From: Branchiostoma floridae
Taxonomy: Eukaryota > Chordata > Leptocardii > Amphioxiformes > Branchiostomatidae
Assembly (NCBI RefSeq): GCF_000003815.2
Contig: NC_049996.1
Location: 12,271,433-12,335,432 of the forward strand
DNA length: 64,000 bases
Direction of reading: 5' to 3'
Shown here: positions 9,701 through 56,300 of the stretch, piece after piece
Layout of the letters: each line of letters starts with the position of its first letter
How positions within the stretch are numbered: the stretch's first letter is position 1
Program-made: the position numbers and the translations under genes
Notes under the pieces: model-generated
Database searches by the model: none
Told to the model about the DNA's origin: nothing
What the model saw: only the letters and a program-made list of their open reading frames with translations

Positions 9701-10180
9701 AAGTCTAGGCTCTACCGTTACACCATTGACCTAGCCAATAAGACCGTACAGACCAAAACCTTCCGAAGCAAATCCCCTATGGAAGATTTTCTACACAAGA
9801 TTGAATTTCCAATTATCAACGAAAATTACCGAACCAAACATTACTGCTACGTGTACGGTGTCATTCTCGATTTTTCTCCCTCAAGCCCACTCAATGGTTC
9901 ATTCGCCTTGGTGAAAAAGGACCTGTGTACCCCTGGTAATGATCTGTATTGGTACCACCCGAACCATTACGTCAGCGAGCCGAGTTTTGTCGCCGATCCC
10001 GACGGGAAAGCCGAAGATGACGGCGTTCTTCTGTCGGCTGTTTTCGACGCCGAACTGGGCAAAAGCTATCTTCTCATTCTTGATTGTAAAACGATGAAGG
10101 CCATTAACACTGCCTACATGCCTACCTACATCCCGTTTGGTTTCCACGGGAGGTTCTTTGGTAAGGATTGGCCAGTGTAA
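6708..10180 (+). CDS. Carotenoid oxygenase (BCO/RPE65 family), 3 exons
   Basis: Exons 6708-6896, 8101-8246 and 8935-10180 join in frame to about 526 residues, close to the usual 530-550 of animal beta-carotene oxygenases and RPE65. The enzymes cleave or isomerise carotenoids or retinoids at a non-haem iron held by four histidines. All four are present in the expected contexts: AHPIVEP, YMHSFALTENY, FFTHHVNAYE and the terminal PFGFHG. The exon 1/2 joint gives TLVRNAPALFELG, the family's N-terminal LxRNxPxxFE motif. Exon 1 encodes a hydrophobic leader (ALNTVGACVVLFATLSVSAA), unusual because vertebrate members are cytosolic or membrane-associated. A second ATG at 6723 has better context (G at -3 and +4) and would start directly on the leader. 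Which carotenoid is used cannot be told. The stop codon coincides with the start of an inverted-repeat element. Confidence 0.93.
8262..8345 (-). mobile_element. MITE-like fragment in carotenoid oxygenase intron 2
   Basis: Read on the minus strand, this has GGCTACTCCC, a GGTTGGGGAG core and GTCGGGAGTAAG, the same order as in the elements near 43100-43200 and 44440-44540 (+). It sits between exons 2 and 3 and lacks coding capacity. A weaker related piece follows near 8430-8480. Confidence 0.55.
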
Positions 10181-17253: not shown

Positions 17254-17361
17254 GAGAGCCAGCCGGCTGGTTGCCCGCCCTCCCCGACTATAGGGGATAA
17301 CAACCCTGCAGCAGACAGCGGCACAGGCCGTTTAGACAGAACTTAGCTGTTATATAGTTTC

Positions 17362-20300
17362 ATGTCTAGCATGTTAAATGTAGTACAGCAGGTGGTAGTT
17401 GTTTTCACTATCCTTGTGAGTTGTGTAAGTTTAGAACTGACATGTTTTCCTGGGTGCAAGAACACAGAATCCTGGTCATTCTGTTTTCCCATTAGTATAC
17501 AAGATTATGGGCCCCATTTTCAGAGAGGCACTTGTATACAATGCCCCACACAGCTACAGAAACAGCCAGTACTAAAGAATTCCTCCCAGCCAACCTCAAC
17601 ATGCCTCCCTAACAAGGACCGTGTAGCCATTCGGGGGTTCTCATTTGGGATACTGTCAGTTCAGAAACTACGACCACCAGTCCCACAGCTGTCGGAGATA
17701 AATGACCTTGCTCTTGTTCAATGTGGAATCACAAATTTGGAACAGGGTATTTTAGCTAAGTTTCCTGGATTACAGTCTTTATACATTAACTTCAACAACC
17801 TGACCCACATTAAGAAAAACTGGTTTGATGATGTTAGTCCAAAAACGCGATTCTATTCCATATCATTGTCACACAACCACATTAGTAATATAGATTCTAA
17901 ATGCTTCCAAAATCTCACTTTCCTGCGCACTTTACTACTGGACAGCAACTCTTTGCAAAGTATCCACCCATCTTGGTTTCATAATCTGAAATGGTTAGGT
18001 CATCTTTCTTTGAAATCAAATTCTATTGCAATCATCCCTCCACAGGCATTTAAGTCACTATCACGGCTGGGACGCCTGGACTTGAGCAGGAATGCGTTGA
18101 CATGTTTGTCAAGGGAAACTTTAGAGGGGCTGCACAGACTACGCAAACTGTCACTGGGTGGGAATAGGTTGTTTGCTCTCGCTGATTCTGTCCATTTGGT
18201 AATGAACTGGCGACTGGAATATCGTCATTTAAAGCATGACGGCCAACATGTTGCAGTAAGGGTTAACAAATCGCTTTTCTGTATCACTGAAATTCCCCAA
18301 CTGAGGCAATTTTATCATGTCCAGATGCAACATGACAACCGCACACAGGCAGCTCGGCCAAGTGTGGAACCACTCAGTCAATGCACTGCTATAGATTCGG
18401 GGCTTACAGGAACAGGCCAAAGGAAGTACAGCCTGCCACTGATCATCATATCAGTCAACAAAGAATCTGACAAAAATGCTAAAAACATCACCCACTTGTG
18501 CAAACATGCTTGGGAATATGTCTCCCTTGTAAAGGTAGCGTTGCGGGGAGACATTACTCTGCAGATTGTTCCCATGGGTATAGACAGGTCCTGCAATCCT
18601 CAAATTGTTGCAATAGTTCTATCAGATACTGATTCTGATAGACACAGTAATAATGTCAGTGCCTTTGGTCATGAAGAAATGATGAATGTAACATGTTTGG
18701 TCAACACTTGGGAGGAGACCTACCAACACGTCTTCACCACGCCCTTGTCCAGCACTCCTGATGGTACCGTGTGTGCAGAAAAGACCCAGGCCACAAGGGC
18801 CGTGTCCAGCACTCCCGATGACACCGTGTGTCCGAGAGAGGTTGTGATAATGACCACAAGAGAGCCTGAGATCAAGACAACAAAGTTGACCCTGAATCAG
18901 ACAAACCCCAGTACAAATGGAACTGTGAAGGAGAAATCCCCACGTGTAGCGATCATCACAATGGTAGTTGTAGTAGGGGTAGTACTGGTAGCGCTGTTTG
19001 TGATGTATGTTGTCAGAAGGCGTTCACGGGGCGACCAAGCCGCACAGGCTGCCGGCCACCTGGCAGGAGTCCATGGCACTGCACCCAGTAGGACTACACA
19101 TCAGTCTTCATCTTCAGGTGATGATCCACAGTACAGTGTAATTCCTGACGAGTACTACAACCAGCAAAACACTGGGACTACTAATGATTATAGTCAGATT
19201 CCTGACGAGTACTACAACTACTACAACACAAGACCAGGGGCACAGCATCCTTACTGGGAGATCCCTGACGAGTACTACAACTACTACAACACAAGACCAG
19301 GGGCACAACATCCTTACTGGGAGATACCAGATGAGTACTACAACTACTACAACACAAGACCAGGGGCACAGCATCCTTACTGGGAGATACCAGATGAGTA
19401 CCACAACCGCTACAGCACATACCCTCCAACACGTCGGGTGCCTCAAGACAACAAGGACTACTCTGTAAGACTTAACACCACTACAGCTGAGGTGGCCCTT
19501 CCTTCATCAACCAGGCTGGGTGGTAAACATCCATCCTACGATACAGCCCCTCAAGTCTGGAGAGACCCACAGAATTACCAGATACCCGCACGTGGACGTG
19601 ATACAAACATCAGAGCACAAGGAATGCCTGTAGCAGGCAATAGTATTGGCCCCCGGTATATGGGTTTGATTGACAACAGGAGACGCCTATCATACCCTCT
19701 GACACTTCGTGTGCCTCAAGACAACAAGGACTACTCTTCAAGAATTAACTCCACTGCAGCTGAGGTGGCCCTTCCTTCATCAACCAGGTTGGGCGGTAAA
19801 CATCCATCCTACGATACAGCCCCTCAAGTCTGGAGAGATCCACAGAATTACCAGATACCCGCACGTGGCCGTCAGACTAACATCAGAGCACACAGAATGC
19901 CTCTAAAAGGCAACAGTCTCCATCGATACATGGGTTTGTTTGGTAACTACAAATACAAGAAGAGACGCCTATCATACCCTCTGACACTTCGTGTGCCTGA
20001 AGAGCATGAGAACTACTCTGCAGGCTTTAATGCCACTAGCACTGCAGCTGAGGTGGTCCTTCCTTCATCAACCAGGCTGGGTGGTAAACATCCATCCTAC
20101 GATACAGCCCCTCAAGTCTGGAGAGACCCACAGAATTACCAGATACCCGCACGTTGCCGTCAGACTAACATCAGAGCACAAGGAATGCCAGTATCAGGCA
20201 GTAGTAGTGACCCCCGGTATATGGGCTTGATTGGTAACTATAGCAAAACAATGAGAGCTGCAAAGTTTAGAATGCAGGCAATGCCTCTCTACAACCCCCT

Positions 20301-20394
20301 TGCCCATCACAGTAGACACCAGCGTAGCACAAAGTACCAGGCTTCAATCAAAGCTGAACCCACAGAGAACAAAAATCACCCTAACTTGTCATGA
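17362..20394 (+). CDS. LRR type I membrane receptor with tyrosine-repeat tail
   Basis: A single-exon CDS of 1010 residues. It has a signal peptide (about 1-24), a cysteine-bearing N-terminal segment, about seven leucine-rich repeats (roughly 112-275; for example LRTLLLDSNSLQSIHPSWF), a cysteine-containing spacer, a Thr/Ser-rich stalk, and one membrane helix (about 528-551, AIITMVVVVGVVLVALFVMY) followed by RRR. The ~460-residue tail carries five IPDE(Y)(Y/H)N blocks starting at about 594, 613, 634, 655 and 676, preceded by YSVI, YSQI or YWEI. It then carries three ~95-residue repeats each with SYDTAP, NYQIPAR and RYMGL. YxN and YxxI/YxxP suit Grb2-type and other SH2 adaptors, so a phosphotyrosine-signalling receptor is inferred. 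LRR proteins bind varied ligands; the ligand here is unknown. The 63-base repeats are almost identical in DNA, hence recently amplified. I do not recognise an orthologue. Confidence 0.92.
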   Translation: MSSMLNVVQQVVVVFTILVSCVSLELTCFPGCKNTESWSFCFPISIQDYGPHFQRGTCIQCPTQLQKQPVLKNSSQPTSTCLPNKDRVAIRGFSFGILSVQKLRPPVPQLSEINDLALVQCGITNLEQGILAKFPGLQSLYINFNNLTHIKKNWFDDVSPKTRFYSISLSHNHISNIDSKCFQNLTFLRTLLLDSNSLQSIHPSWFHNLKWLGHLSLKSNSIAIIPPQAFKSLSRLGRLDLSRNALTCLSRETLEGLHRLRKLSLGGNRLFALADSVHLVMNWRLEYRHLKHDGQHVAVRVNKSLFCITEIPQLRQFYHVQMQHDNRTQAARPSVEPLSQCTAIDSGLTGTGQRKYSLPLIIISVNKESDKNAKNITHLCKHAWEYVSLVKVALRGDITLQIVPMGIDRSCNPQIVAIVLSDTDSDRHSNNVSAFGHEEMMNVTCLVNTWEETYQHVFTTPLSSTPDGTVCAEKTQATRAVSSTPDDTVCPREVVIMTTREPEIKTTKLTLNQTNPSTNGTVKEKSPRVAIITMVVVVGVVLVALFVMYVVRRRSRGDQAAQAAGHLAGVHGTAPSRTTHQSSSSGDDPQYSVIPDEYYNQQNTGTTNDYSQIPDEYYNYYNTRPGAQHPYWEIPDEYYNYYNTRPGAQHPYWEIPDEYYNYYNTRPGAQHPYWEIPDEYHNRYSTYPPTRRVPQDNKDYSVRLNTTTAEVALPSSTRLGGKHPSYDTAPQVWRDPQNYQIPARGRDTNIRAQGMPVAGNSIGPRYMGLIDNRRRLSYPLTLRVPQDNKDYSSRINSTAAEVALPSSTRLGGKHPSYDTAPQVWRDPQNYQIPARGRQTNIRAHRMPLKGNSLHRYMGLFGNYKYKKRRLSYPLTLRVPEEHENYSAGFNATSTAAEVVLPSSTRLGGKHPSYDTAPQVWRDPQNYQIPARCRQTNIRAQGMPVSGSSSDPRYMGLIGNYSKTMRAAKFRMQAMPLYNPLAHHSRHQRSTKYQASIKAEPTENKNHPNLS
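19135..19420 (+). repeat. 63-bp coding tandem repeats (YxxI-PDE-YxN)
   Basis: Units starting at 19198, 19261 and 19324, plus partial ones at 19141 and 19387, encode IPDEYYNYYNTRPGAQHPYW-type blocks of 21 residues. The DNA is nearly identical between units. All four wobble differences checked are silent or confined to the first and last unit, where the tyrosine triplet motif YxN is kept. Confidence 0.9.
19489..20235 (+). repeat. Three ~280-bp coding repeats in the receptor tail
   Basis: Blocks starting near 19489, 19765 and 20056 each encode LPSSTRLGGKHPSYDTAPQV, then WRDPQNYQIPAR, then a GMPV/PRYMGL stretch. Identity in DNA is very high in the first half of each unit and lower in the linker. 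Each contributes three conserved tyrosines. Confidence 0.88.
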
Positions 20395-23849: not shown

Positions 23850-26800
23850 TCATCTCTTAGCGTAGCGCTCTATGTAACTCGTAACCTTCTCTTGAAAAGA
23901 TTCCTGAAGAAAAGGGGAAAAAAGGGAATTTTTTCATGAATGTCAGCAGCTACCTGCAACATTGTGCAAAATACTAGAAATAAAAATTCATCTGGTGTAT
24001 CATTTGCAGGCAGTAGGTACCCAATTTTGAGTAATGAGACTGATTTACATGCTCGAGGCACCTCCTTGAACACTATTGTACATGTACGTTACTTCCAAAA
24101 GACGAATGCAATCCCTGACAACATGTCCTAGCTAAGTCAACCCTGGGATCAAACTCAGGTCCACAGATCCATGGAATTGGAACTGCTCAGCTATGGAGAC
24201 ATGCTTAAATGTACATATAAAAACATTGATGGCCTAAACTTTCAAACATCTCAAGCTGATTTAAATCTTTTGAATGAAGGTTTATCTGCACAAGGATATG
24301 GGACAGGTTTGAACACAGATCATTCATTCATTCATGCATGAATCCATTGATCCTGCATTCATTCATTCAGTAGATATCAAACAAAAGAAAAACTACAATT
24401 GCAGTGTACATTGGAAAGCAGTTTAGAGAAAAGAATGATTAGGTGTAGTAAAGAATAGAATGAATGTGTCAACTTTAAAACTGAACCGTATATAAAGATG
24501 TGGGATATACAAATCATACTCATTATACATTTTTGTATCATAGAAACTATAATAGTGACTAGTGGACCAGATTAACTAATCAGGATGCTATACCTCCTGT
24601 CGTTTAAATGTATGAAATTAAAGACCAGGCTTACCTTGTCCCTAAGCCAATGTTCTGCAGCTTCTAGATTCAGTGGGTCATCAAAGTCACAAAGTTCCTG
24701 AGGAAAAAAGTTCATTTGTGAGGAGTGTGTTCTCTGTGTTAAAGACATCTAAAGGCATCCAGTCAGAGAGACAAAACCTATACCAAATATGCTAGTTCAC
24801 TCTTTGCAGACAAAATTTAAGGCAAGTGAGACTTCAGGAAAACATGTCAAGAAAAGAATTGTTAACAAGTTGGGGCCTTCACTTTTAACCAGCACATGCC
24901 CAGTTCAAACCTTGAAACAGCTAGTTACAAAAAGATATCAAAGCAAGTTGTGGCCAGCTTGCATGTGAGAACAAGATGATTACCAACACTTAGATAGAGG
25001 ATGTCTAAAACTAGACCAAGCAGTGATGGGAGCCAATTTGTGGCCATCTTGCAAGTAAGAAAGTGCTACAAAGACCAATACTTACATAAAATAGTGCATT
25101 TAAACCCCACACGACATCCTGTAATGTAAACAACAAATGACTCAAAATTTGTTTCATACAATGATACATGTACAAAGTTGAAAATCATCTCTCCATAGAA
25201 ACAAACTACATGTACTGTAAGTTGATAAACCTCTAATCATAGCAACTCTGAACTTTACTTCCTGTTAATCTGGCAACTCTGACATTCACTAATTCACTCA
25301 CTCTCACTCTGCAGAGAATGTGACACATGGAATATACATGATGTGGACAAGAAAACAGACACAAAAAGACACACTGAAAGTGAGACCTCTGTTCACAGAG
25401 GTAACAACAGCATTTCAAGACACAAGACACATGTTTACTTCAAGACACAATCTCCTATCAAAACTGTAACGTATTTGATCCTGAAAGGCTATCTTAGAGA
25501 AAAAATTTAGGGATGTTTCATTAAATGCTGAACAAAACATATAAGTTACCTTAAGAGTCCGTGTGGGAGACCACCCAGTTGCATCTAATGATGTTTCCCT
25601 AAGCAAACTGGAAAAAAAATGTTTGCGCAGTTAGGTGGATCCTATAAAATACAAATGATTTAATAGCTTTGTGTGTACTTTTGGTTCACAGTCTTAACTC
25701 AGGTGAAAATGAGTACCTAGCTTTGTTACGGACATCTTTTCAGATTGAACGCAAAGCAAGATGGAAGTCCTGTGTTTGAGGACAGCCATAGGTTGAGCAG
25801 CATGTTCAAGAATTCACCACAGTGATCAAAAAGGCTAGGGATCCAACCCTGTGCAAGTGGATCAAACCTTACAGTCTGGTCTTACACAGCTTGTACAAAA
25901 CGGGTGTATTACACTGGGTTTACTGATTATGGAAAACAAACAAAAAAGATACATAAGGCAAGAGTTTTCCTTACCTAAGACAAATATCGCCATTCTCAGC
26001 TATGTTTGGATGCCATATCCTGGTGTTACACTGCACTCGTGGGGGCTGTGGATGAAAAAATAAATATCATAGAACATTATACATCAACTTCAACATGCTG
26101 CATTATTATCTCTACCTATCCAAAACGAGCTACATGAGGTCTGCTGACTTGGAGGAAATATATAAATTATTATAATCTACTCACCAGGATATTGTAATCT
26201 TCCGGAACATCTACATCAAAGTCAAAGGTCCCTCCATGCCAAAAACCTTCATCTGAAACAGACATCAAATTGTTGGACATACAGCTATTAATATTTGACT
26301 AATATTTCTAATTAACAATAATTAAGGGTTCAAAGAAAGTTTTTGCAGCATTTCCTTTTTCTGGTCAAAACAATGCACAAAAGCAAATACTATCGGTGCT
26401 GTGAAAAACACAACAAATATTCAAAGATTTACAGAATACTAAAGGACAGTGGCAATTTGAATATTTCTTGTCCAACAGATACTGCAATACATGTACAAAC
26501 TTGTACTTACCAGGTGCAATAGTTATGTTGAACTGATGGAGTTTGTCGGGGTCATCAAAGGTCACTTTACAAGTTGCTGTGAAGGTTGAAAATAAAGCTC
26601 CAAAGTTATTAACAACAGGCCCATATGCAAATATTGAAGTAGATAATCTACTTGTATGGAAACCAGAAATATGAAAATATGTATGATATGATGTGATATT
26701 CTATCTGTTAAACTCCTTTATCATTATTGTTAGTGCTATTGTTATCATTGCTACCATCACCATTATCAGATTGTTGTATGTTAGATTTGTTTCTTTGTAT

Positions 26801-27366
26801 GTAACTATTCATACTTGGATGCTACTTTACATTATAGGTCCCTGATTAGAGATAAAAAATGAATATATAAATCCATAAATAAACATCTGTAGTTTCTGAC
26901 TTACGTGGCAAGTTCGACTCCATTTCTTGAACCTCTGTGAAATAAAATAACATACATAATAATGTACATAATCCCTTGATGGAAATCCTATTTTCTTTGC
27001 CAGCAAAATTACATTGTACCATTGGTTGTACTTCTATTTGAAATGGACAGTCACAATTGATATGTAACTGAGGAATTTTTGCGGTGATTTTATTTTCGCG
27101 GTTTTTGAGCTGCCAATTCACAGTGAACTTAAAACCACTGCAAACATTTTTCCATGGCAGAGACTACAGTGAATGGTGCTAATGCGAACAGTCCTTTTTC
27201 CCACTACCTAGAAATTTTTCCCGAGAACTTAAATGCTTTTACAGTATAAGACCATACCTTTGACCAGTAGTTTATCCCGAATGGAGGCCCTCTTGTCAGG
27301 ACTGTGAGCAATCTCCACAGGTTTGCCTTCTTTCGCCTGCTTCAACTTCTTGGACAGAGTAATCAT
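23850..27366 (-). CDS. UBE2F: NEDD8-conjugating enzyme UBE2F
   Basis: Nine coding exons on the minus strand (27366-27258, 26934-26905, 26576-26511, 26252-26185, 26045-25975, 25607-25550, 25118-25086, 24697-24635, 23903-23850) join in frame to 183 residues; human UBE2F has 185. All junctions have GT-AG sites. The E2 fold is plain: [21 protein letters not shown], then the HPN motif in [15 protein letters not shown] with the catalytic cysteine in GDICL, then [14 protein letters not shown] and [11 protein letters not shown]. The N-terminal [10 protein letters not shown] and IRDKLLVKE are the parts that dock the NEDD8 E1 and are specific to UBE2F versus UBE2M. The enzyme passes NEDD8 to cullins, chiefly CUL5 with RBX2/RNF7 in other animals. 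It is divergent to VPS25. Confidence 0.96.
24130..24200 (-). mobile_element. tRNA-like SINE head in the last UBE2F intron
   Basis: On the minus strand it reads CATAGCTGAGCAGTT, like an A box, and 30 bases later GACCTGAGTTTGATCCCAGG, like a B box. Together these resemble a decayed tRNA-derived SINE head. No intact tRNA cloverleaf can be drawn, so it is not called as a tRNA gene. Confidence 0.4.
24310..24370. repeat. ATTC/GAAT simple repeat
   Basis: Interrupted runs of ATTC (CATTCATTCATTCATGC and later CATTCATTCATTCAG) form a low-complexity microsatellite in the last UBE2F intron. Confidence 0.7.
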
Positions 27367-27639
27367 TTTTCACTCCTGTACAACAGACAGGACAACAAAA
27401 GATATATGTTAACTTGTGATTTTGCATAATGTGTCATTTCCAAGCAGATGTTGGGGTGGGAGTTTATAGTTTAACATACAATTACAATTCTGTAAACATT
27501 GTATACACGTAAATTTGTTTAAAAGCTTGGGAGTTGGGAGCCATTAGAAACATACAATATTTCGCATCAATATCTGCTTGGAGACTAATGTCCATGAATA
27601 TGTGAGTTTGGGTGGACAAAGATATCATTACATTTTTTC

Positions 27640-28433: not shown

Positions 28434-31217
28434 ATGGCGGAGTTTCAGTGGCCGTGGCAGTACAACTTTCCTCCGTTTTTCACGTAAGACGGCATTTCAG
28501 AATGATTTTACGCAAAAATAACCATACCGTAGCTAAAACATATGCAGTTACAGTGGATTTTGTTAGTTTTAAGTACTGTCTATTTATGATAAACGAGATA
28601 AGGTGGTCGAAAGTTGACAAGACTGGGGAGGGGGGCGGTAGAAAACTTGTTTCGTGACAGTGTGGAAATGTTGGGTGTGTCATGATGATTTTGAGGCTCA
28701 TATACATGGTTTAAGGGCCAGAAAAAACAGAAGCCTCATCTTTCAATGAGAAAAGTATAGATAGAAGACATTTGATGCATTCGTTTTGTAGCCAAATGGA
28801 CTTAAATTATGACATGAATTGATCAATTGATGTTTTTATTTGTTAAGGGCTCCCTTATTTATTAAGCCCTTAATTGGAAATAAGCCCTTAATTGGAAATA
28901 ATCAGATATAACTGAAGGGACTACCCTAAATATTCATCAATAGAAAAACAAATTAATACTAGTAACATTTGAATAAGCACTCACTCTGAGGTATGGATCT
29001 CCTCAAACAAAGTAACATGTTTCCTCCAACTTTTCGTCTCATTCAGGAGGATGTACCTTAATGAAACTAGGTACTATTTCACTTTAGTTGAGTGAGGAAA
29101 TAGGTGCAAAGTGCCTTCGTCCAGAATACAACATTGGGGCCTGCTACTTAGTGCTAGGTATTCAAAGGGTTGTACTTGTAGCCAGCCCGAAATCATTTTC
29201 CGTCTCCTTGAATGGCTTTGGTGCAGCATTCCTAGGGGGTCTGGGGGCATGCTCCCAAATAAAATTTTGAAACCTAGACCCTCAGAAACACTATTTCCTG
29301 CATTTTGAGGGTTAAATTTTGCTCACAGAGGACGGAATGGGCAAATTTTTTTCCGTCCCCAGCTACAACCCTGATTCAAACACAGAACCTTTATATTCTA
29401 AGTCAACAACCCTAACGATGTTAGACCACTTTATTTGTGTAGCATACAGCCCAACAAGGACACCCAGGCTAAACAGCTGGAGGCGTGGTGTTTGCTGGTA
29501 CTATCTTACTGCAGACACAGGAGGCAGTACAGCCTAGACGTCACAGATGCACAGGACAGTCCACTCTTCCATAACAAAAAGATAGACAGTATCCTTCATG
29601 GAGCTTATAATTACACACTCAACATATGTTTAATCTCAGTGTATCTCTATATCCTCTGAATTGTACAACTACTGGTAGGTCCCATGTCCAGCTATTGTTG
29701 GCCAGCTAATGAAAAGTCATGCAGCATCTTTGATATTTTGCACTGTCACAGTTAACAAGAAAAATGGACTGTCTGAATGGTTGGCAGTGTTATATACTGT
29801 ATAATATACATCATCATTGTTACTATTGATAACAAATTAGAGTTTGTACAGTATAACTTAGAATATATCAGTACCTTTTTAGTGTACTACCTTAACTATC
29901 TACCAGGAAAATTGCCTTTAGATGCAGTCTACACTGTACTAGAAGAACTCAGGAAAAAAGGTAAGCATTGGAATGTCTTATACGTTTGTAAAGAATGCTA
30001 TTACTTAGGCATCTACTTTTGTTAGTGTTTTACACTGAAGAGTGGTTATTCAGATACAAATGTCTACAAATCTCACTGTCTGTTGCCCTAACAGCAAGCA
30101 TTTGAACTTTCTTTGAAAATTCATTTACCTTGATTGCACTGTTGCCTAGGTAATATAGAATGGACTGACCCAAAGAAAAGAAACAGATGTCTCATCATGT
30201 GGAGAACACCTGAGGAGTGGGGGAAGATCATCTACCAATGGGTGAGTAGCACGAGTTAATCAATCACAATGCGGTACAAGAGCTGTTGGTCAATGTAGCA
30301 TTGCCTGATCAAAACAAAGGTTGTTAGGTTAGCTGAAAAGTCCTTTTCAGAATAAACTTCTGAATATTCTTTTTTTGAATTGATTTGAATGATATAATTC
30401 TGTATATTGAAAACTTTATGTTGATATCGGATTGTTTTTGTCTAAGTCCTTGTACTGTAACTGAGTGTAAGAAAGATGCCCATACTTTTAAGGCTGAAGG
30501 TATTCTTCAATGTTGTTGTAGTTGTTGTTAATTTTTTTTCTGTCCTCCCAACATTAGGTGACATCCAATGGTATGAACAACACTGTATGTACAACATATG
30601 AACTGGTGAATGGGGACGACACAACAAGTCAAGGTAAAGTTGAAATTTGTTGATCTATAGTTGGTCTAACTCTAAGGCTTCAAGTATTCCTTTGAATCAG
30701 TTTGATAGAAAATTGATTTGTTTGTTGGTTTGTTTGGGACAAGATAACTAGTAGTTGTATAAGGTATATAGTGAAAGAAAATGCTAAAGAAATAGATACC
30801 ACTTGTCAATTTAATATTTGTCCAAAAAAGGTTTGTCATCAGAAGCTAGTTCATGGTTTAAAATGCTCTTGCACGAGGTCAAAGGTGAAGACCCTAACTT
30901 GTAAACAGTTGATACCATGGCCATCATATTTTTGTTTATGCCTTGGGGGCCCTCAACTTTGACATATTGTGCATGAGCTTATTGATTCAGGATCCCATTG
31001 TATTGTTACGGGAAGATTTTATATTGTGTAGTTCAATAATCAAGATGTGCTAGCTATTAGAATACATGTTCTGTACATTTGTATGTGACCAACATTTTGT
31101 TTTACTCTTTCAGAATTCCATGGAATGGAATCCTGGCTGCTGACAAGGGCTCTACAAACATTACAACTAGAAAGAAAGGCAGAACTTATGGGCAGCGAGG
31201 GGGTGAAGTTCTTCTAA
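28434..31217 (+). CDS. VPS25: ESCRT-II subunit VPS25
   Basis: Six exons (28434-28483, 29443-29588, 29907-29960, 30150-30241, 30558-30633, 31114-31217) join in frame to 173 residues; the human protein has 176. VPS25 is present in two copies in the ESCRT-II complex, each binding VPS22 or VPS36 through an N-terminal PPxF-type motif and recruiting ESCRT-III (CHMP6) for sorting of ubiquitinated membrane cargo into multivesicular bodies. The N terminus reads FQWPWQYNFPPFFT, containing that PPFF motif. Then come KQLEAWCLLVLSYCRHRRQY, KLPLDAVYTVLEELRKKG, CLIMWRTPEEWGKIIYQW and the end EGVKFF, all as in vertebrate VPS25. Both winged-helix domains are complete. Exon 2 uses the TGTGTAG acceptor; the next AG downstream would break the frame. 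Confidence 0.96.
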
Positions 31218-31299
31218 ATCATCAGGCCTCCCATATAGTTGTGATGTATAGGATTTATTGTGTAAAGATGATTTCAGGCAGCCTGAAAATTTGGTGAAA

Positions 31300-34872: not shown

Positions 34873-37647
34873 ATGCAACTACCTGTGACAAGTATGTAAC
34901 ATTTGTATATTGTGACAGACTTGATGGCTGTTCTTAGCTTTGAAGTCTTTTTCCTTTAATTGTAAATGTTTTGTAAGAAGTTAATTCACCGATGTCTAAG
35001 ACGCCATGTGCGTCGATATATAGTTTGAAGTTTTTCCTGTATCCCTCATCGTACATTAGTACTATTCTGACTCTTCATATAACTCAGTTATTAAAGGCAA
35101 TGTTCTCAACTCGTTACCCATAATTCTTTTTCTGCAGGTGTCATTGTTGTCGCCATGAGCATCATGGTTACCATGACGACCGTGTCAGGCAGGTGTGTCC
35201 CTGTGGATGACGACATGGCGGAGGTCGGGGGTTTCCCCGTCCAAACGCCCTGCGAACTCTTCACGAAAATGCGCAATCATGTTATCCGGCTGGGCAATGC
35301 CGCCAACGCGACATTCCATGCCTTTGTAAGTGTCCATTTTTTTTGCCGAAGCCTATAGGGCGGAGACTAATAGGGATAACGTCTTCAGTAATAAACAGTA
35401 TTTGGTAGTGAAAAAATGTACTTTTAAACAAATGAAAAAAGTGTATTTCGAAAATGAACTTTTAAAGGTGCTTCCAAATCTGTACTCGCAAAAGTGCACT
35501 TCCAAATGTTCCAGAGTAAATCTCTTTCCAAAACTTCTTTCCACTTTCTTTCCAGAGAATTTTTCATTATTCAAATGTTATTGCAACGTTTTACCACGGG
35601 GGTCGATCGTTTTTATTATCATCCTGAGCTAACATAAACCAGATGGGCCAGGAACCCCATATGTGGTGGGACCTTGTCCTCACAGAAATGTTAACACATC
35701 CCTAGCGTTATCTCGATGCATTCATAACGAGAGTGGAATCAGTAGATATACAGATATAGCACGACATAGGGCCAAAATGAAATGTTGTGTGACGTCATGT
35801 TATCAGGTGGACCAATACCCGTCGGCCTCCTCCGGATGTTTCGGTCACGACTTCACCCTGGTCGGCCTAAGGAGCGGACTGCGCATGCCCTACTTGGACT
35901 GGACGAACTTAGGGGTATGACATCAACTTTTCATTTTTTGTAGCAAACTTTCTTGATGCGTTTATACCTTAAGAAAGTTTCTATACTCTCCGAAATTTGA
36001 CTGAAACAAATGTAATATAGTACATATATACATTGAATTAGTACATGTATACATTAAAGTCATCGTCGGAAAAATGAACAACAGATTTTGAAGATGCTAA
36101 CGTATTTTCTACTACAGAGTCTACATGTGTATGTAACAGTTACCAAAGACACGTGTAATTTCGTGTCAGATACACGAAATGCAGAACTATACTCATCCGC
36201 AACTGCCCATGCAGAACAATTGACACATTAATTTGGTACTTTTTCATAACGCAAACATGATAATGATATTCCTTCACGAAGGTAGAAGATCTAGTTGTAT
36301 GCAGTTGCGGGTCACTGGAATCCATGCCCCCAGGGTACTGCCCTGGGACACTCAACATCTCGGTAACGGCACTCGGTAAAAATGTCTTTGGTGATGGTGG
36401 AGGAACCAATACATCCCGGCCATGCAGATGTGTTGTTCTTTTTTTGGCAACGCCCTAAAAAAAATATAAGGGCGGAAGCATTTTTCCACATCTGCTTGGT
36501 GGCTCTGTTTCCTAACTGGTTGACAAATGACAACTTGCACGGGAGAAGCATGTTAGGTCATGGGAAATGCATAGATATTCAAGGATGAAGGTTTAGGTTT
36601 TACCATACCATAGAAAAGTTTTACTGCACCTAGGGTAACCTTGTCTTGTTCCTCGGTCCTGTATACGTATCAGTCTAAGGTTAACTCGGTTAAATTGGTG
36701 TACTATTAGAAAAGCTGTAAGGGCTAAGGTGTATAATTAGAAAAGCTATGCAAGGGACTTACAGTTGCATGTTTTTATCTCTCTGTACAGGAGGAAGCTA
36801 AGATTGGTCGGATCTTTGCGGATCTGCTGACTTTCAAAGTATATCTCAGGGAGGTGCGCCACGACGAGCACCACCATGCGCGCCACCATGCGGAACAAGA
36901 TGGTACTGAACTGATGAACTCCACCCACACCACCCTCGCTCGTTTGGAGCACCTGCTGACCAAGATCAGGGTTACTGCACAGGTCAGGACTTAGTTCTCG
37001 TAATAGAAGGGTTCTCTTAAACAGAAACAAAATTCTTCAGCAGACTGAGATGGACTGATAAATCATATGTGCAACCATTTCTGGAAAATGCAGAATGTTT
37101 TCCCCAAAGCCTTTCGTCAGGCTATTCGTACGCAATACTTTGCTATTAGGCTAAACCTTAAGTATTGTGTGCGAGTAGGAAATTTGGACCTATTCATTAA
37201 CAATCCTATTATACAACTGGACTCGCCTTCCTAATGGTTGTGTGCGAGAAAAAAGGTTTTGCCATCGCAAATCTGTAAAAATTGCTCGTATTAACATAAA
37301 CAGCTGAGCTAAACTCTGACTGGCTACTGGCTACTAACAGAATACGAAAGAAAGATAAACACCAGCAAAAACAATGTTTTCCCTACCGAGGGAAACATAA
37401 TTCATTCATATGACTTCAACAAGCATAGTTTAAAAGTCCGTTTTCTTTCCTTGTTGGCTTCTAGCCTCAACACAGGTGCTACACTCTCCCTGACTTCGAC
37501 GGAAGTGACGTCATGACTGCTGCCGAGAAAGACCCAACCGGCGACCTCCGCGTGTCACGTGACTACCAGGTGCTGAACAACTTCCGTTGGTTCCTCCGAT
37601 GGCTCCTGAGCGATGTGACCAATTTCCGGTACATCCACTGTAACTAG
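34873..37647 (+). CDS. Putative IL-6-superfamily (class I helical) cytokine
   Basis: Five exons (34873-34891, 35138-35325, 35807-35914, 36791-36982, 37465-37647) join in frame to 229 residues, all with GT-AG sites. The signal peptide spans the first intron: MQLPVT in exon 1, then a hydrophobic run (VIVVAMSIMVTMTTVSG) with cleavage expected before Arg25-Cys26. Exon 2 also encodes an amphipathic stretch (FTKMRNHVIRLGNAANATFH, helix A), exon 3 a loop, exon 4 two helical stretches (IGRIFADLLTFKVYLREVRH and THTTLARLEHLLTKIR, helices B and C), and exon 5 a terminal amphipathic helix D (RDYQVLNNFRWFLRWLLSDV then TNFRYI). Helix D resembles those of CNTF, CLCF1 and cardiotrophin. Intron phases are 1,0,0,0 and exon 1 holds 19 coding bases, as in vertebrate IL6 and LIF. 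Five cysteines and two N-glycosylation sequons are present. Receptor is unknown; a gp130-like one is predicted. Sequence identity is low, so homology rests on architecture. Confidence 0.75.
36415..36500. mobile_element. Small foldback element in cytokine-like intron 3
   Basis: GGCCATGCAGATGTG at the left pairs with CACATCTGCTTGGTGGC at the right, and ACGCCCTAAAAAAAATATAA with GGGCG forms the loop. It is a short foldback insert without coding capacity. Confidence 0.45.
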
Positions 37648-39284: not shown

Positions 39285-42200
39285 ATGGGGTCGTCTTGTT
39301 CTTCATTGTCGTCAGCAACGGTTGTCACAACAGCGAAAAATGTAAACGGGGTACCCACAAGGAAACAACCACCTGTCACAAAAGAAACCGATCGGCGGAT
39401 GCAAAATGGTAGACAACAGCGAACGACAACAGCAAAGACAAAGGACACAGGCAAGGATTTTGTTTCCAATACAAATATTCCCACCTCACAAGGGTCTAAC
39501 CTGTTGTGTAAACATTCAGAGCTGATACAAGATGCCAATGCTGACGTCTCGGTGCAATATGACAAGAAGTCGCTAGACGGGGTACCATTGACAAATGAAG
39601 GGTCGACTCGCATTTCGAATGCAAGTTGTAATAGCCAAGACGCAATAGAAAGTCTATGCAAACCGGAAGGTTCTGAGAGACCTTCAACACCAGGGAAAAC
39701 TGCGACACGTGCGACTGAGACACAAGCACAAAGCAAGAAACAAAAGCCGTCAGAACAAAGTGAAGTTATACAGAACGACGAACAAAAAAATAGCAAGAAT
39801 GAAGCAAAAAAAGAGAGCACCACAAAGCTGTCAGACGCTGCAACCAGAGAATTGTTTCACAAAAGTGACGACAATTCTAAAGGTGGTAATGTTGTGGACA
39901 CTGATGAGACAATACGGCAAATCGCTACACACGAACCAGTTTCATGTGAAAAAGCAGACAACGACAAAACGAATTCAAAAGATGAGAATGGCTCGACAAC
40001 AAATGACGGTAAAGGGACTGGAGGTCAAGATGATACAGAAAGGATTCCCGTCCCTTCTCCAATAATGCCAGAAATCAAAAGACGTCTGAAGAAAGTGGAG
40101 CTCATCCCAGACGTGTCTGTTTTCAAGGAGCTAGACGACTATGCCAAACAGGTACATCATTATAATTTTTTTTATTAGCGAGTGAAGTGATCATAAATCG
40201 CCTTTAGTACTTAATTGATAAGTAATCCTGGCTTCATTGGTAACTCGAAGTAGATTTATCATGTTTGCAATATGATACAATATCGTTTATGAATATTGCA
40301 ATATCGTTTTTGTTTGCTGTTGCCTTGTATATCTTTGGGTGACCGTTATTGGGTATTTGACTACGCGTAGCCTCGACAGCGACCCATATAATATACGTTA
40401 GGGAGGCTTTGCTAAACCGGTCTGAGGTTTCCACTTTTGTGATCGGGGCCTCTAACCTGAGCTGTCAGCCAATCAGAGAATTGACTTTGTAAACGCTTTC
40501 TTTAGGAAAATCTGATTCTCTGATTGGCTCGGGCTACTGGTTAAAGGCCATGCCCGTAAAAGTGTAAACCTCAGCCCTGTTTAGCAAGAGCTTCCCTAAG
40601 TTAAAGTGAAGAAGAATGATAATGAGTTTACGAGATATTTTCATTTTCTAGACCCCGGAAAACGCGGAAACCTCAATGCGTTCGCTGGTGAACTATTTGA
40701 CTCTTCCGACCAAAACGTCACTGGAGAGAATACGTGTCCTCTTCATGTGGGTGGCTACACACGTTAGGTATGACGTCAGTGCCTACGTCAAGGGTGCGCC
40801 ATACGGAGATACGTCACCAGAAGCCGTGTTCAGGACCAGGTTGGCTATTTGTCAAGGCTATGCTGACCTTTTTGCAGAATTGTGCAGGTAAGTCTGCCTT
40901 TAAGAACAGCATAGTCCTCGTTTGAAAAAATTGAAAGTTTTAACTATACCTTCATAACGCTACAGTTCCCAAACAGATGTGCTTGCAAGATAATACTACA
41001 AAGCCACCATATTTGTACAAAAATCAAAATACAGTCATGAAACAATTTTTCTCTATTCCCTAGCTTGGTGAACATCCCATGCAAGACCATCTCCGGCAAA
41101 GCCAAAGGAATCGACTACGTGGTCGGCACCAAATTCAAGGAGCCCAGTAACCATGCATGGAACGCCGTACAAATAGACGGTTTCTGGTACCTCATAGACT
41201 GTACATGGGCCGCCGGTCACTCAGACATAAGTTCAAGAACCTTTGTCTTTAGCTATACGGAACACTACTTCTTAACAGAGCCAGAGTTTCTCGTGTCAGA
41301 CCACCTCCCCATAGATGACAGTTGGCAGCTGTTAGACGATCCTGTCTCGGTGCAAACGTTTGAATCATGGGTACTCTTGAAAGCTCGTTTCTTTGACCTT
41401 GGTCAGCGCATGTCTGACCTTAACCACACTAAATCTCGCGTGCCAACCAAATCCGGTTCCACAACTATCAAGATAAGTCTCCGCGAACCCATGTCGTTTG
41501 TTGTGCATCTGAAATCGTCCGATGGTAAAAAGAAGTTGAGCGAAACAAAAGACTGTGTGCTGCATGAAATCGTCAACATGGAGGCACGTTTTTACGTTGT
41601 TCCTCCTACAGAGGGCAACTTCCTGTTAACCATCTTTGCCAAGAAAGGAACGTCATCGGGAAGCCATGATTTGTTACTAGAGTATGTTATACAGTGCAAA
41701 ATCCCCAAAGCAGCAAGTGTTCCCTTCCCATCAGCCAACGGGGGGACCTTACGGGGGCCAGGCCACTTCCTTCTTGATGGCGTCATTTCCGGTACCAGCC
41801 ACCTGGAAGCTATAATTGACGTTCCTGATGGTGACGTCAAAATTCAGTTCGAGTTTGAGAGAAAGTTGCGTTTTATGTGTCATTTTGGGGAAGACTCTCG
41901 GTGGAATGAGTACGTACTCACGGAAGCCGAAGACAACTGCGCGACTTTTTACGTCAGGTGCCCTGAAGCGGGCTTCCATCGTTTGACAATATGGACCAAA
42001 GAAGATACCGGGTCCGGAGATGGGTCTTACCATAGGCATTGCACTTACATCATTAGCTGCAAAAAGAAGAAGCCAAAATGCGCGCCTTTTCCAAAGACTT
42101 TCAGAACCTGGACGTCTGGCTGTAAGGTGTTCCGGCCGAAAAACGGACATCTGGCTTCAAATCGGGCCGTCCAGTTTCGCGTCAGGTGGCCAGAGGTTGT

Positions 42201-42372
42201 TGACGTGGCCGCGGTGGCTGATGGTAAATGGTACCACTTCGTACATGGTAGTGATGACTGCTGGGAAGGTAATGCAACCACTGGTTCTCAAGGTACATCG
42301 CTTCAAGTGGCCGGCAAAAGAGATCCAAATGTAAACTCCTATGAGTGGTTACTTCAGTATTCGGTTGTTTAG
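39285..42372 (+). CDS. Transglutaminase-like KY/hillarin-type protein
   Basis: Exons 39285-40151, 40652-40887 and 41064-42372 join in frame to 803 residues. The N terminus MGSSCSS fits N-myristoylation at Gly2 with Ser6 and possible palmitoylation at Cys5, so membrane attachment is inferred. Residues to about 289 are low complexity, Lys/Thr/Gln/Asp-rich and probably disordered. A transglutaminase-like fold follows, with the triad Cys356 (RLAICQGYADLF), His398 (PSNHAWNAVQ) and Asp413 (YLIDCTWAAG). Two to three ~110-residue beta-rich repeats with FYV(V/R)(P/C)P-(T/E)-(E/A)G and LTI(F/W) motifs complete the protein, as in kyphoscoliosis peptidase (KY), hillarin and cytokinesis-related TGc proteins. 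In KY proteins the triad may act as a protease or scaffold at the cytoskeleton; enzyme activity here is not shown. Exon 1 is uncommon in being long and unrelated to the family core. Confidence 0.9.
40397..40601. mobile_element. 205-bp foldback MITE in KY-like intron 1
   Basis: The left half starts TTAGGGAGGCTTTGCTAAAC and the right half, read in reverse complement, starts TTAGGGAAGCTCTTGCTAAAC. Pairing continues for about 85 bases (CTGAGGTTT, CACTTTT, CCAATCAGAGAAT) around a short loop. It is a near-complete hairpin and lacks coding sequence. Confidence 0.88.
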
Positions 42373-45644: not shown

Positions 45645-48600
45645 ATGAATCTGCTCCATGTCTTTTCTCTTGTTTGCCTCTGCGTTACTATGGCAACTAC
45701 GCAGAGGTGTACTGATGACGTATGTGAGTTCACCCTGGTGGTTCGTTACGCAAGGACCATGACGTATACCGATAGGGACGGCAAAGTGCACGGGGTAAGG
45801 CCGCCATTTTGATTTTCATTGCCTCTTGTATTGGATGTTATGATTTTCATAAGTCTATCAGACTGTTTTAATTAAAGTGTGTTATGTTTGATACAACCAA
45901 ATTTCCGCAAACTCTAACCAGTTTGTTTTAACCTCAAGGCTTTTACAGTATTAGCAACTAATAGTTTCATATTTTTCAACATTGCAGGTCAAGATTCTAC
46001 CAAACGGGAGCCTGCAGAGGATGGACGGGTCCATAGTTTCTGTAGAGGAGGCCATCACGGCTGATGGAGTGCAGCGAAACGTAATTCTCGTGAACGACCA
46101 GTTCCCCGGTCCTACATTGGAGGTCATGGAAGGAGCGCAGGTAAACAACGATATAAATGATAAGGTTGATGATTCCTAACTTTTGCCTTCAATTTAACTC
46201 TAATAACTGTCTGAAACCCAATGCATTAATTGACCATTGTGCTAATTTTGAACATATCCACGTGCACATGATTTGAACATGCTGTATTTTGATGTGTAAT
46301 ACCCACGGTAACCCACCTCTATTCCCGATTAGATGGTTGTAACCGTCGTCAACAAGCTGCTCAAAGAAGCCACCTCACTCCACTTCCACGGCATGTACAT
46401 GCGCGGTGTGCCACATATGGACGGGGTGCCTTACGTCACACAATGCCCCATCCTACCCATGCAAAGCTTCACCTACAGGTTTAAGGTAAGTCTCCATAAA
46501 AACACCAGTATTATATCAACAGAATTTCATGCTAGAAGATGAGTATAACTCATAGGAAACACATACATGACACTTGTAAATGTGGTATAGAGTTATTTAC
46601 GCTTGATACAGCTATATTTCTTTTTGTATATCACAATAGGCGGAGCCTGCTGGGACCCACTGGTACCACAGTCATCTTGGCTCACAAAAGGACGACGGTC
46701 TGTATGGGGCGTTCATAGTGCACAAGAACAGGTAGGTACCATTCAACAGTTCTATGTGATAAACCAGGAGGTACTGAGATTGAATTTAGGCCAGATCTGC
46801 AGTTTTTCCCATGAGTCAGGCTGAAACATTCTCCTACGCAGAGGGACCACAATCGTGTCGAAACTCCTTGTGGTCACCACTGCTGTCTGGAGCACTCAGA
46901 TCAGTTACTGACCGCCCTGCCTATAAATATCAATGAGCTTACCCTTATATGGGCTTTCAGCCGTTGGGGACCGGGCGTAGGAGGTTGGAGCTATGTAAGA
47001 CGTAACATGATTGGCTGATAGCTTCCCGGCGACCTTTGCTAGATCCCTTTCGAAAACAGAAAGGCCAAGAAAGGCCCATTCTCTGATTGGCTGACAGCTG
47101 GTTTGAGGCGACGTTCACAGTAACCGCTGGTGGGCCTTCAGACAGCAGGGCCCCAACAGGTAGTCAGCTGTTGGGGACCGGGCGTAGGAGGATGGGCTGA
47201 AACTGCTGAACTTCATGCTGCCAATGTGTGTTCTACAGCATGCCGACGACCCCATCCCTACCTATGTTCCTGCAAGATTGGTGGCACGATGACTTCGATG
47301 ATATGGACGTGTTCGCCAAGGGTCCTGGGCGCTTCATTGTAAGTGTGCTGTTGAAAAAAACAAACACATTGAATAAGAATGATGTAGAAAGCAATCAGCT
47401 ATGACAAGTAGGATTCTTACAACCATCTCTCTTTTTACAAATGGGTGATTTTCACACGTCATACAAAAAGACGTAAGGAATGCAAGTGTTCAACAACTAC
47501 CATATTTTCTTGCTCTCAAAAATGGAACGTTCGGTCGCAGGTCCGGCAATATTTGACCTTTATCGTTGATGATGACTAGACATTCAATCTTATAATCTTA
47601 TTGTTTAAATCCTAGGTTCACCCAAAAGATCGTGGATACAGCTTTGACGGTGAAGACCTGTCGAATTACAACTTCGAATCGGCCCTCATCAACGGCCGTG
47701 GTCGGTACAACAACAACTCCGCGCCGCTAACAAGGTTTGAAATATCATCGGGAGAAACCTTACGGTTCCGCCTCATCCACGTAGGCGCAGAGTACACCTT
47801 CCGCGTGTCCATCGACGCGCACAGCATGACGGTCGTGGCAAATGACGGACATGATGTCGAGCCGGTCCAGGTTCAGTCCATCCTCGTCTTTCCAGGAGAG
47901 TCTTACGACTTTGAAGTAGTCGGCGATCCGTCTAATAGTGGTACCTACTGGATCCGTGCCCAGACGCTGTTGGCGGGAAAAGGGCCCGATGTCGAGCCAG
48001 AGGACCGACTACAAGAAGTGAGAGCCATCCTGGCACATGCCAACAGCCCTACCGATGAAGACCCGAACTCAGCGATGCAAACCTGCACCGAAAACAGCCC
48101 GTGTCGAGTTCTGAACTGCCCTTTCCCGGCGTTCCCTGCAGGCAGCAATACGGAATGTGTCTACGTCTCAGACCTGAACAGCACCGAAGAGTACACAATA
48201 CCGGACGAGTCAGAAACTGAAGAGTACTTCTTCACCTTCGTTGGTGGCTCCACAGTAAACGGTCGTAGGTTTGCCACCCCGAAAAAGCCACTGATCTTCA
48301 AAGCACCCTATGACATTACCCCCTGCGAAGCCACCTGTGAGATGGACATGTGTACGTGTACCTACATGGTGGAGATTCCACCCGGGAAGACCATCAGGTT
48401 TGTGTTGATAAACGGGCATCACCCCTTCCATCTCCATGGTTACGACTTCAGGGTTCTGGCCATGGGATTTCCAGACTACAACAAAACAACGGGTGAGTTT
48501 TCTCTCCACTTACTCCAAGAGGACTATTTACATTGTTTACACTAGGCTCGGTAATGAAATGATGTCCGCGTCCAAGTAATAAAATTGATCAGGAACACGA

Positions 48601-53337: not shown

Positions 53338-56300
53338 ATGAATCTGCTCCATGCCTTCGTTCTTGCTTGCCTCTGCGTTACTATGGCAACGACGCAGAGG
53401 TGCACTGATGACGTATGTGAGTTCACCCTGGTGGTTCGTTACGCACGGACAATGACGCACACCGGTAATGCTGACGGCAGTGTCCACGGGGTAAGGCCGC
53501 CATCTTGAAATTTACCTCTGGTAGATACATGTATGTTATGATTTTCTTGAGCCTAGAGTTTGAGTCGACCAAGGCAGCTAGTGTCAAGTGTGTTTTAACA
53601 CTGTTAGGATAAACTCTAACCAGCTTGTTCTTCTATCTAAAAAATGCAATAAACTGGTCATGTACATGTGTAAGCACAGGGAGACGCATTGTGGGTAAAA
53701 TGTCAAAGTTGATGGCCCCTGAGATATAAACAAAATACGTCTGGATATGTTTGAAAGACATAACGTACCTGTTTGCAAGATATGGGCCATCACTTTTGAC
53801 CGTTACCCACAATGCACCTTACCGCGCAAGCGCAGTTTGAACCGTGAACTGACCAATAGCTAAGTATTCACAAATGGTCCAGATCGACAATCTGACAAAC
53901 GGAAGCCTGCAGAACGTTTACTCGTTTTCTCAAGCCAGAAGCCTGTATGTCGATATATATATAGTATAATGTTGTTGCAGCCTCCAACCAGATTGTTTTT
54001 TATTCTTAAAGAAGTCTAGTAGGATTCTAAAATTCTCACTGTATTTTCTTTTACATCATAGAAACCAATAATTCGTTTTTGTTACCACTCCAGATTGAGA
54101 TTCTGGCAAACGGAAGTCTGCAAGACAAATACTCGCTTTCTCAGGGAGACATGGACGGACCCATAGTTCCTGTGAATGAGACCATCACAGCTGATGGAGT
54201 GCAGCGAAACGTAATCCTCGTGAACGACCAGTTCCCCGGTCCTACATTGGAGGTCATGGAAGGAGCGCAGGTAAATGCTGACTGTGATGATGATACCTAT
54301 TTAAGTCTCTTTACTGCTGATTAAGCTTCGCCTACACAGAAAAGTTCATTGTGTGTAATATGTCAAAGACAAAGTTGAGCATACACAGCGAAAGTTCATT
54401 GTAGGTAATATGTCTTAAGTTGAATTTAAAGTTGAGACATAAACAAGACATGTCTGGACAGTGTACTAGTATCAAGCATGGTCAAGACAAGACCTGTTTA
54501 TATGATAGGGACACCATCTTTGACATATTACCCAATAATGCATATCCCTGGGTATCCGCAGTTCAATCCGTGGAAAAGTTTTTCACAAAATTTTACTAAC
54601 ACGTTATCACCAATGTTTATATGGACCACTGAGCTGACTTTCTCCTGATGTACACAATAATCGCAAACTTGCACATGGATAAATATTGATGCTTGACGAC
54701 CATGTTCCATTGACTCCCTATTAGGTGGTTGTAACCGTCGTCAACGAGCTGCTCAGAGAAGCCACCTCACTCCACTTCCACGGCATGTACATGCGCGGTG
54801 TGCCATATATGGACGGGGTGCCTTACGTCACACAGTGTCCCATCCTACCCATGCACAGCTTCACCTACAGGTTTAAGGTAAGTCTCGATATAAACACCAG
54901 TACTACATGAAGAGAGGACGCGTATATATCGTAAAGGACACTAGACTTGTAGAAGTCGTACAGAGTTGTTTACACTTGTTGCCGCAGTCTAAGATGCTAA
55001 GTGTGATTTTCTGATTCTATACTACAGGCGGAGCCCGCTGGTACCCACTGGTACCACAGTCATCTTGGCTCACAGAAGGAAGATGGTCTGTATGGGGCAT
55101 TCATAGTGCATAAGAACAGGTAGGTATATAGCGTTCTATACGGCACACCGGAAGGATAGTTTGATACATTCTTTGCCCAGTCATTTCTCATTGAGACAGC
55201 CTGAAACTGCCGACATTCTTGTTAACCTTTGGTTTTACATTACAGCATACCGACGACTCCGTCCCTACCGATGTTCCTGCAAGATTGGTGGCATGATGAC
55301 TTCAATACTATTGACGTGGACAGCGCTTATATGGAGCACAGGGGTCCTGGGCGCTTCTTTGTAAGTTTGTTGTTAATAAACAGTAGAAGAAGCGAAAGTG
55401 ACTGAGATAAAACCGATGCGGTGCAATATGATGTATATTACGATGTCCTATCACCAAGTCTTATCTTACAATCATACTTTTCAGATGAGGTAAACTTTCG
55501 CAGAACTTGTTGTAATGATTTCGTGTTTGCTTTCTTGCTCTATGGATAGAAAATTGCAATGACTGCTCGTCTGACTGGATGTACTTTGTTGTTGGTGATC
55601 ATTGGACATTCGTTCTTATCATATCCTAGGGCCCCTGGCAGGAGCGTGGCTTCAGTTTTGAAGGTACCGAACTGACGGCTCTCAACTTCAAATCGGCCCT
55701 CATCAACGGCCGTGGTCGGTACAACAATAACTCCGCGCCGCTAACAAGGTTTGAAATATCATCGGGAGAAACCTTACGGTTCCGCCTCATCAACGCAGGC
55801 GCAGAGTACACCTTCCGCGTGTCCATCGACGCGCACAGCATGACGGTCGTGGCAAATGACGGACATGACGTCGAGCCGGTCCATGTTCAGTCCATCCTCG
55901 TCTTTCCAGGAGAGTCTTACGACTTTGAAGTAGTCGGCGATCCGTCTAATAGTGGTACCTACTGGATCCGTGCCCAGACGCTGTGGGCGGGAAAAGGGCC
56001 CGATGTCGAGCCAGAGGACCGACTGCAAGAAGTGAGAGCCATCCTGGCATATGACAACGCTCCTACCGATGAAGACCCGAACTCAGCCATGCAAACCTGC
56101 ACCGAAAACAGCCCGTGTCGAGTTCTGAACTGCCCTTTCCCGGCGTTCCCTGCAGGCAGCAATACGGAATGTATCTACGTCTCAGACCTGAACAGCACCG
56201 AAGAGTATTCAATGTCGGACGAGTCAGAAACTGAAGAGTACTTCTTCAACTTCGGATACCAAATAGGCTCCTCAGTAAACGGTCGAAAGTTTGACACTCC

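Follow-up and report, generated by a model that had tools for sequence, protein, structure and literature searches.

The window analysed here is a stretch of 64,000 nucleotides, C18:12271433-12335432 of the 513-Mb Branchiostoma floridae genome (431 contigs). At 34873-37647 on its forward strand lies a gene of five coding exons (19, 188, 108, 192 and 183 bases). Its product is very likely a secreted long-chain class I cytokine, one of an amphioxus family that stands nearest to CNTF, CLCF1 and cardiotrophin-1 (CTF1), the gp130/LIFR branch of the IL-6 family. The coding sequence of 690 bases specifies 229 residues and a stop codon, all four introns are GT-AG and their phases are 1, 0, 0 and 0. 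The exons are listed below; helix A was located by aligning profiles with CNTF and GH.

34873..34891, forward strand: coding exon 1, 19 bases, with the start codon and the first residues of a hydrophobic leader; ends in phase 1
35138..35325, forward strand: coding exon 2, remainder of the leader, then putative helix A (TPCELFTKMRNHVIRLGNAANATFHAF); ends in phase 0
35807..35914, forward strand: coding exon 3, putative A-B loop, aligned to the A-B loop of CNTF and ending in RMPYLDWTNLG; phase 0
36791..36982, forward strand: coding exon 4, putative helices B and C, a hairpin according to AlphaFold2; phase 0
37465..37647, forward strand: coding exon 5, putative C-D loop with DPTG, helix D (RDYQVLNNFRWFLRWLLSDVTNFRYIHC) and the stop codon

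The N-terminus is hydrophobic (by Kyte-Doolittle hydropathy only), and the protein contains five cysteines and two N-glycosylation sequons. A disulphide would join Cys45, which precedes helix A, to Cys228, which follows helix D; the pair also occurs in the closest paralogue, C4a, and is reminiscent of EPO.

A first-pass annotation had proposed this gene model and had read it as an IL-6-type helical cytokine gene in a non-vertebrate chordate. Its exon sizes, phases and protein length are borne out. The gene has a family of paralogues whose exon junctions lie at matching places and phases. At least six related genes were found in the genome, one in the window, four on C4 (C4a to C4d) and one on C15 (C15a); six is a lower bound since the genome searches score best candidates only. 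A protein search of the genome with the window protein returned the gene itself and three ordered pieces on C4, with a best E-value of 7.9e-9, which led to C4a. Used as query, C4a gave weak exon-4-like matches on C4 (E 0.10, 0.88 and 1.4) leading to C4b, C4c and C4d, and C4d matched fragments of C15 (E 0.04 and 0.05), which led to C15a and a partial tandem copy, C15b; C15a in turn recovered the C4 genes (E 0.006-0.26). In blastp the window protein matches C4a at 4e-40, C4c at 3e-19, C4b at 7e-17 and C4d at 4e-16. Each exon of the window gene has a counterpart in C4a, bounded by equivalent junctions of equal phase, which puts the coding status of the window gene, judged by sequence comparison, beyond chance. 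A weak match on C5 was dropped as a repeat, and a marginal one lies at C15:13101485 (E 3.25).

C4a has the phases of the window gene plus one extra 63-base phase-0 exon, which gives 1, 0, 0, (extra 0), 0. The window gene, C4b and C4c all have phases 1-0-0-0 with introns between the helices, the three modelled introns of C4d are in phases 0, 0 and 0, and in C15a exon 2 starts in phase 1 and the three later introns are in phase 0. C4b and C4a are some 11 kb apart and C4c and C4d lie head to head at about 6 kb, according to their coordinates. The coding part of the first exon is 34, 49 and 43 bases long in the three C4 paralogues for which it was modelled (C4a-c, chosen from start codon, donor site and phase), versus 19 in the window gene. 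Because this length varies within the amphioxus family, the 19-base exon cannot serve as the mark of IL-6 and LIF that the first-pass annotation saw in it. The intron phases fare no better as an IL-6 mark: 1-0-0-0 is common to GH, EPO, G-CSF and IL-6, and therefore indicates long-chain class I cytokines generally.

On C15 (C15:10350500-10360400, reverse strand, at about 3937-4446 and 6209-6697 of that stretch) cytokine exons 4 and 5 occur twice in tandem; the duplication also takes in the preceding sequence and part or all of exon 3 (C15:10354665), and exon 2 is single. This may be either a partial duplicate or a set of alternative C-terminal cassettes.

Amphioxus profiles were compared with sets of human cytokines by means of hhalign, with column-shuffled profiles as controls. 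The 63-base exon of C4a was left out of all alignments but the first (A1), C15b was left out throughout, and leaders were left out of alignments A3 and A4 and of all hhalign runs. Profile depth differs between the sets and the human rows may deviate in places from the database sequences, so more trust is due to the order of the families than to the scores themselves. The six-member profile scored 64.1 against CNTF+CLCF1+CTF1 (probability 96.3, E 1.7e-9), with columns 34-182 aligned on 40-191, from the A-B loop through helix D and in true register; the best of 200 column shuffles reached 22.6. The other sets followed at 33.1 (IL6+CSF3+IL11+IL12A; best of 200 shuffles 21.3), 23.2 (GH+PRL; best of 200 shuffles 22.0), 19.4 (IL6+CSF3, at noise), 17.9 (EPO+THPO), 15.2 (leptin) and 14.5 (LIF+OSM). 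Against 18 single targets the same profile ranked CLCF1 first (47.8), then CNTF (36.1 over 161 columns), IL-11 (24.4) and GH (22.3), the remaining 14 scoring 20.7 or less. A five-member profile scored 41.8 against CLCF1, its shuffles reaching at most 25.2 (n=400) and 22.2 (n=300), and 26.1 against CNTF, with its own 300 shuffles at or below 23.3. When each of the five members was left out in turn CLCF1 stayed first of three targets (34.8 to 44.7), and reversed queries or reversed targets gave at most 18.4. The window protein together with C4a already scored 32.2 against the CNTF set (best of 80 shuffles 20.2). For comparison, vertebrate single-sequence pairs scored 28.2 (CNTF-CLCF1), 26.8 (LIF-OSM), 19.1 (IL6-CSF3) and 76.0 (GH-PRL). 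From these profiles we strongly infer that the window gene encodes a class I cytokine of the CNTF/CLCF1 type. A helical cytokine gene in a non-vertebrate chordate is thereby supported, and the earlier placing in the IL-6/G-CSF family is right as to class; the closest set is CNTF/CLCF1 (64.1), not IL6+CSF3 (19.4), and the IL-6/G-CSF cysteine signature is absent: of what we take to be the PROSITE pattern, the window protein contains L-x(2)-F-x(3)-L only, with no preceding C-x(9)-C.

This preference could have another origin. The family may descend from a long-chain class I lineage that had not yet differentiated and is no nearer to one vertebrate family than to another, and it may resemble CNTF and CLCF1 most since these have evolved slowly. 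CNTF/CLCF1 and GH both rise above noise, and the exon layout is presumably generic for class I cytokines; on the other side, the score against the CNTF set is roughly double that of the closest pair among the vertebrate sets compared that have no member in common (CNTF set-LIF set, 32.5), though profile depth differs. We hold such a descent to be a real possibility, if the less probable one; it concerns the same type of molecule with another descent, so that it overlaps with a CNTF/CLCF1-like family and the two are not exclusive.

Searches of the PDB (177,635 sequences) were not aimed at a chosen family and are for that reason more telling than those of Pfam. The six-member profile gave nine matches, headed by CLCF1 (0.032) and CNTF (0.052 and 0.080) and followed by YNG1 (0.082), GH (0.32, 0.50 and 0.90), RGS5 (0.60) and TTC5 (1.4). 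With five members there were six matches, CLCF1 (0.33) and CNTF (0.33 and 0.49) standing behind an unrelated one at 0.12; with five members without leaders there were again six, CNTF (0.19 and 0.28) and CLCF1 (0.19), the same unrelated one first at 0.084. A two-member profile had no match in the PDB, and the window protein as single sequence matched only MDM4 (E about 3). Among Pfam families PRF, which we take to be the plethodontid receptivity factor family that also holds CTF1 and CLCF1, was the best for two of the six members, C4b (0.011) and C4c (0.053), in the C-terminal region; the Pfam scans of the other four gave no PRF match. NCBIfam returned one irrelevant match only.

Several results weigh against a CNTF/CLCF1-like assignment. 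The window protein has no match in Pfam, and no member scanned reached the curated cut-off (best PRF score 15.7 bits, for C4b, versus 22). One of five reversed decoys matched DUF3920 at 0.021 and a hand-made family consensus matched an unrelated family, not PRF, at 0.04; since decoy and consensus reach similar E-values with unrelated families, the PRF matches are weak taken alone. The PDB E-values for CLCF1 and CNTF (0.03-0.08) are singly non-significant; human CLCF1 as single query itself misses CNTF at E 10, so that E-values this weak are not out of the ordinary when remote relatives within the family are compared. CTF1 alone is at noise with the six-member profile (13.7), and one of 1200 single-sequence shuffles, of IL-6, hit 26.7, above the five-member score for CNTF. 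The window protein alone scored 16.3 against the CNTF set, below the best of 80 shuffles (20.7; P 0.06), and mildly fits the wider IL-6 set best (20.4 versus 19.5 for shuffles; P 0.003). The lysine of the site III FxxK motif before helix D, presumably a contact of LIFR, is found in none of the six members: the two columns read V in the window protein (with a gap in the F column), L..R in C4a, F..S in C4b, Y..S in C4c, S..A in C4d and Y..H in C15a. Receptor searches, finally, yielded no gp130-like receptor, a result that is uninformative as the Pfam profile PF09240 was silent in the controls too. With gp130 as query there were 27 matches; eight of the loci were retrieved, the ones inspected consist of generic fibronectin III repeats, and none of the eight contains WSxWS on either strand.

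If a CNTF/CLCF1-like cytokine is indeed encoded, the protein would leave the cell by means of a signal peptide, as the hydrophobic leader suggests, fold as a four-helix bundle, engage a class I receptor through the faces formed by helices A/C and A/D, dimerise gp130-like chains and fire JAK/STAT. Since all six members lack the FxxK lysine (C4a has Arg, C15a has His), a LIFR complex is disfavoured, and our guess is a gp130-like homodimer or a complex with an alpha-receptor.

The four amphipathic helices of the first-pass annotation were retrieved in part. AlphaFold2, run with the single sequence of exon 4 alone, predicted a two-helix hairpin (H2-32 and H38-63; mean pLDDT 80.4) that fits helices B and C; exon 5 alone gave one predicted helix (H33-52, with blocks of 72 and 81 there and 60.3 overall) at the place of helix D. 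Hydrophobic moments support the amphipathic character of helix A in the window protein (P 0.018) and as a family mean (0.047), and of helix C as family mean only (0.033; window protein 0.15); those of B (0.96; family mean 0.23) and D (0.29; family mean 0.20) are not above shuffles, nor is C in the window protein itself. The moments of B, C and D in the window protein, together with the missing Pfam match, would be in keeping with a helical but unrelated secreted protein or an artefact of gene modelling. Given the conserved exon junctions of the paralogues, the alignment in register over most of the domain and the shuffle controls, we consider either very unlikely.

Helix D aligns to that of CNTF, CLCF1 and CTF1, and the CNTF/CLCF1 type that had been assigned to it from its residue pattern is supported at the family level. 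In both CNTF and C4b helix B opens with W-x-x-L-x-[DE]-x-E-R-[LM]-Q, and helix D contains V-L-[RQ]-[DE]-[FL] and R-x(3)-D; of these the window protein keeps WTNLGEE and VLNNF. Identity between the amphioxus family and CLCF1, CNTF and CTF1 is only 16-18%. CNTF has no signal peptide. With IL-6 the window protein shares a gapless helix B (DLLTFKVYL / GLLEFEVYL), which is a weak likeness (score 21.9, probability 4), and the A-B loop cysteines of IL-6 are not found in it; the IL-6 intron before helix B is presumably about one codon off, in the same phase, going by exon sizes as we take them to be.

The family is not wholly new, as a type-I helical cytokine of amphioxus, the 208-residue GHl, and further genes have already been mentioned (PMC9010856, in the passages available). 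The same passages refer to several further type-I cytokine-like genes in the amphioxus genome, unnamed there, and the window gene may therefore be one of these. GHl was studied in Branchiostoma japonicum (PMC5376476). In the parts available, PMC9010856 and PMC5376476 report that it resembles GH, acts on growth and osmoregulation and has a GHR-like binding protein; the latter carries an extra Ig domain (PMC9010856). Its published real-time primers, from Table 1 of the available part of PMC5376476, fit C4d in order, one in exon 4 with 6 mismatches out of 25 (peptide LFLDEVL kept) and one in exon 5 with 5 out of 23; C4b and C4c show 8-10 mismatches at best, and no site in the genome has three or fewer. 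The window gene was rejected as GHl itself: primer P19 has at least 8 mismatches anywhere in the window, and the best window site of P20 (6 mismatches, at 9450) lies outside the cytokine gene. C4d, with 209 residues, is very probably the GHl orthologue, judged by length and primer sites and not by the GHl sequence itself, and given its blastp match to C4d the window gene very probably belongs to the same family. The two genes share exon junctions; their proteins are only 25-28% identical, they lie on different chromosomes, and the cysteines differ, with TPC before helix A, a C-terminal HC and none within helix D in the window protein.

If the published view of GHl held for the whole family, the window gene would go back to an ancestral hormone of GH/PRL type, as a paralogue that has diverged from it, and its product would act via a GHR-like homodimer. 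Beyond the reported activities and binding protein of GHl, the likeness to GH consists in being a long-chain class I cytokine and in a weak match of helix A, which is in register with GH residues 1-35; GH is also present in the six-member PDB search, and the GH+PRL score slightly exceeds its shuffles. C4b-d each have a cysteine in the A-B loop and another in helix D, which we take to be the GH pattern; the window protein has the loop cysteine but not the mid-helix-D one. Weighed against 64.1 for the CNTF set, the GH+PRL score of 23.2 is low, and the Pfam GH/PRL family was unlisted for five members at E up to 10 and for C15a at E up to 0.5, a negative limited by the HMMER filters, which drop most matches above about 0.1. 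A GH-like family thus appears improbable to us, and the profiles suggest a closer kinship of GHl with CNTF/CLCF1 than with growth hormone.

On balance we lean, by a little, towards the view that gp130-type cytokines predate vertebrates, that amphioxus carries a CNTF/CLCF1-like family of six genes, the window gene among them, spread over three chromosomes, and that GHl is a member of this family and not a GH orthologue. Two surveys, in the parts available, place IL-6 family ligands in vertebrates only and none in invertebrates (PMC8226699, PMC13203501). The earlier remark that such ligands are not well documented outside vertebrates agrees with them; it is to be qualified by the already published GHl (PMC9010856, as far as available). 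In the open-licence literature searched no report was found of a CNTF/CLCF1/IL-6-type ligand in amphioxus. A class I receptor of gp130-like type is reported from a sea squirt (PMC1963337, in the part available). CNTF/CLCF1-like ligands in amphioxus, if real, would be a candidate for the missing ligand side of such a receptor, would allow the origin of gp130 cytokines to be tested in an extant animal and would require a second look at the claim of growth hormone in the first chordates.

Elsewhere in the window the following were observed; we take human VPS25 to lie some 3 Mb from CSF3 on chromosome 17.

17347-20394: single open frame of 1015 residues with leucine-rich repeats (Pfam LRR_8, 4e-29), what looks like a membrane helix and a tail in which an IPDEYYN-like tyrosine motif recurs several times; this suggests an LRR receptor that signals through phosphotyrosine
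47616-48545 and 55630-56763: neighbouring, very similar multicopper oxidase frames (Pfam Cu-oxidase, 4e-26 and 2e-26)
8897-10180: RPE65/carotenoid oxygenase frame (Pfam, 8e-73)
about 24600-27400 (reverse strand) and 28434-31218 (forward strand): head-to-head genes, UBE2F-like and VPS25-like by eye
41041-42372: KY-like Ig domains, downstream of the cytokine gene (Pfam, 1e-45)
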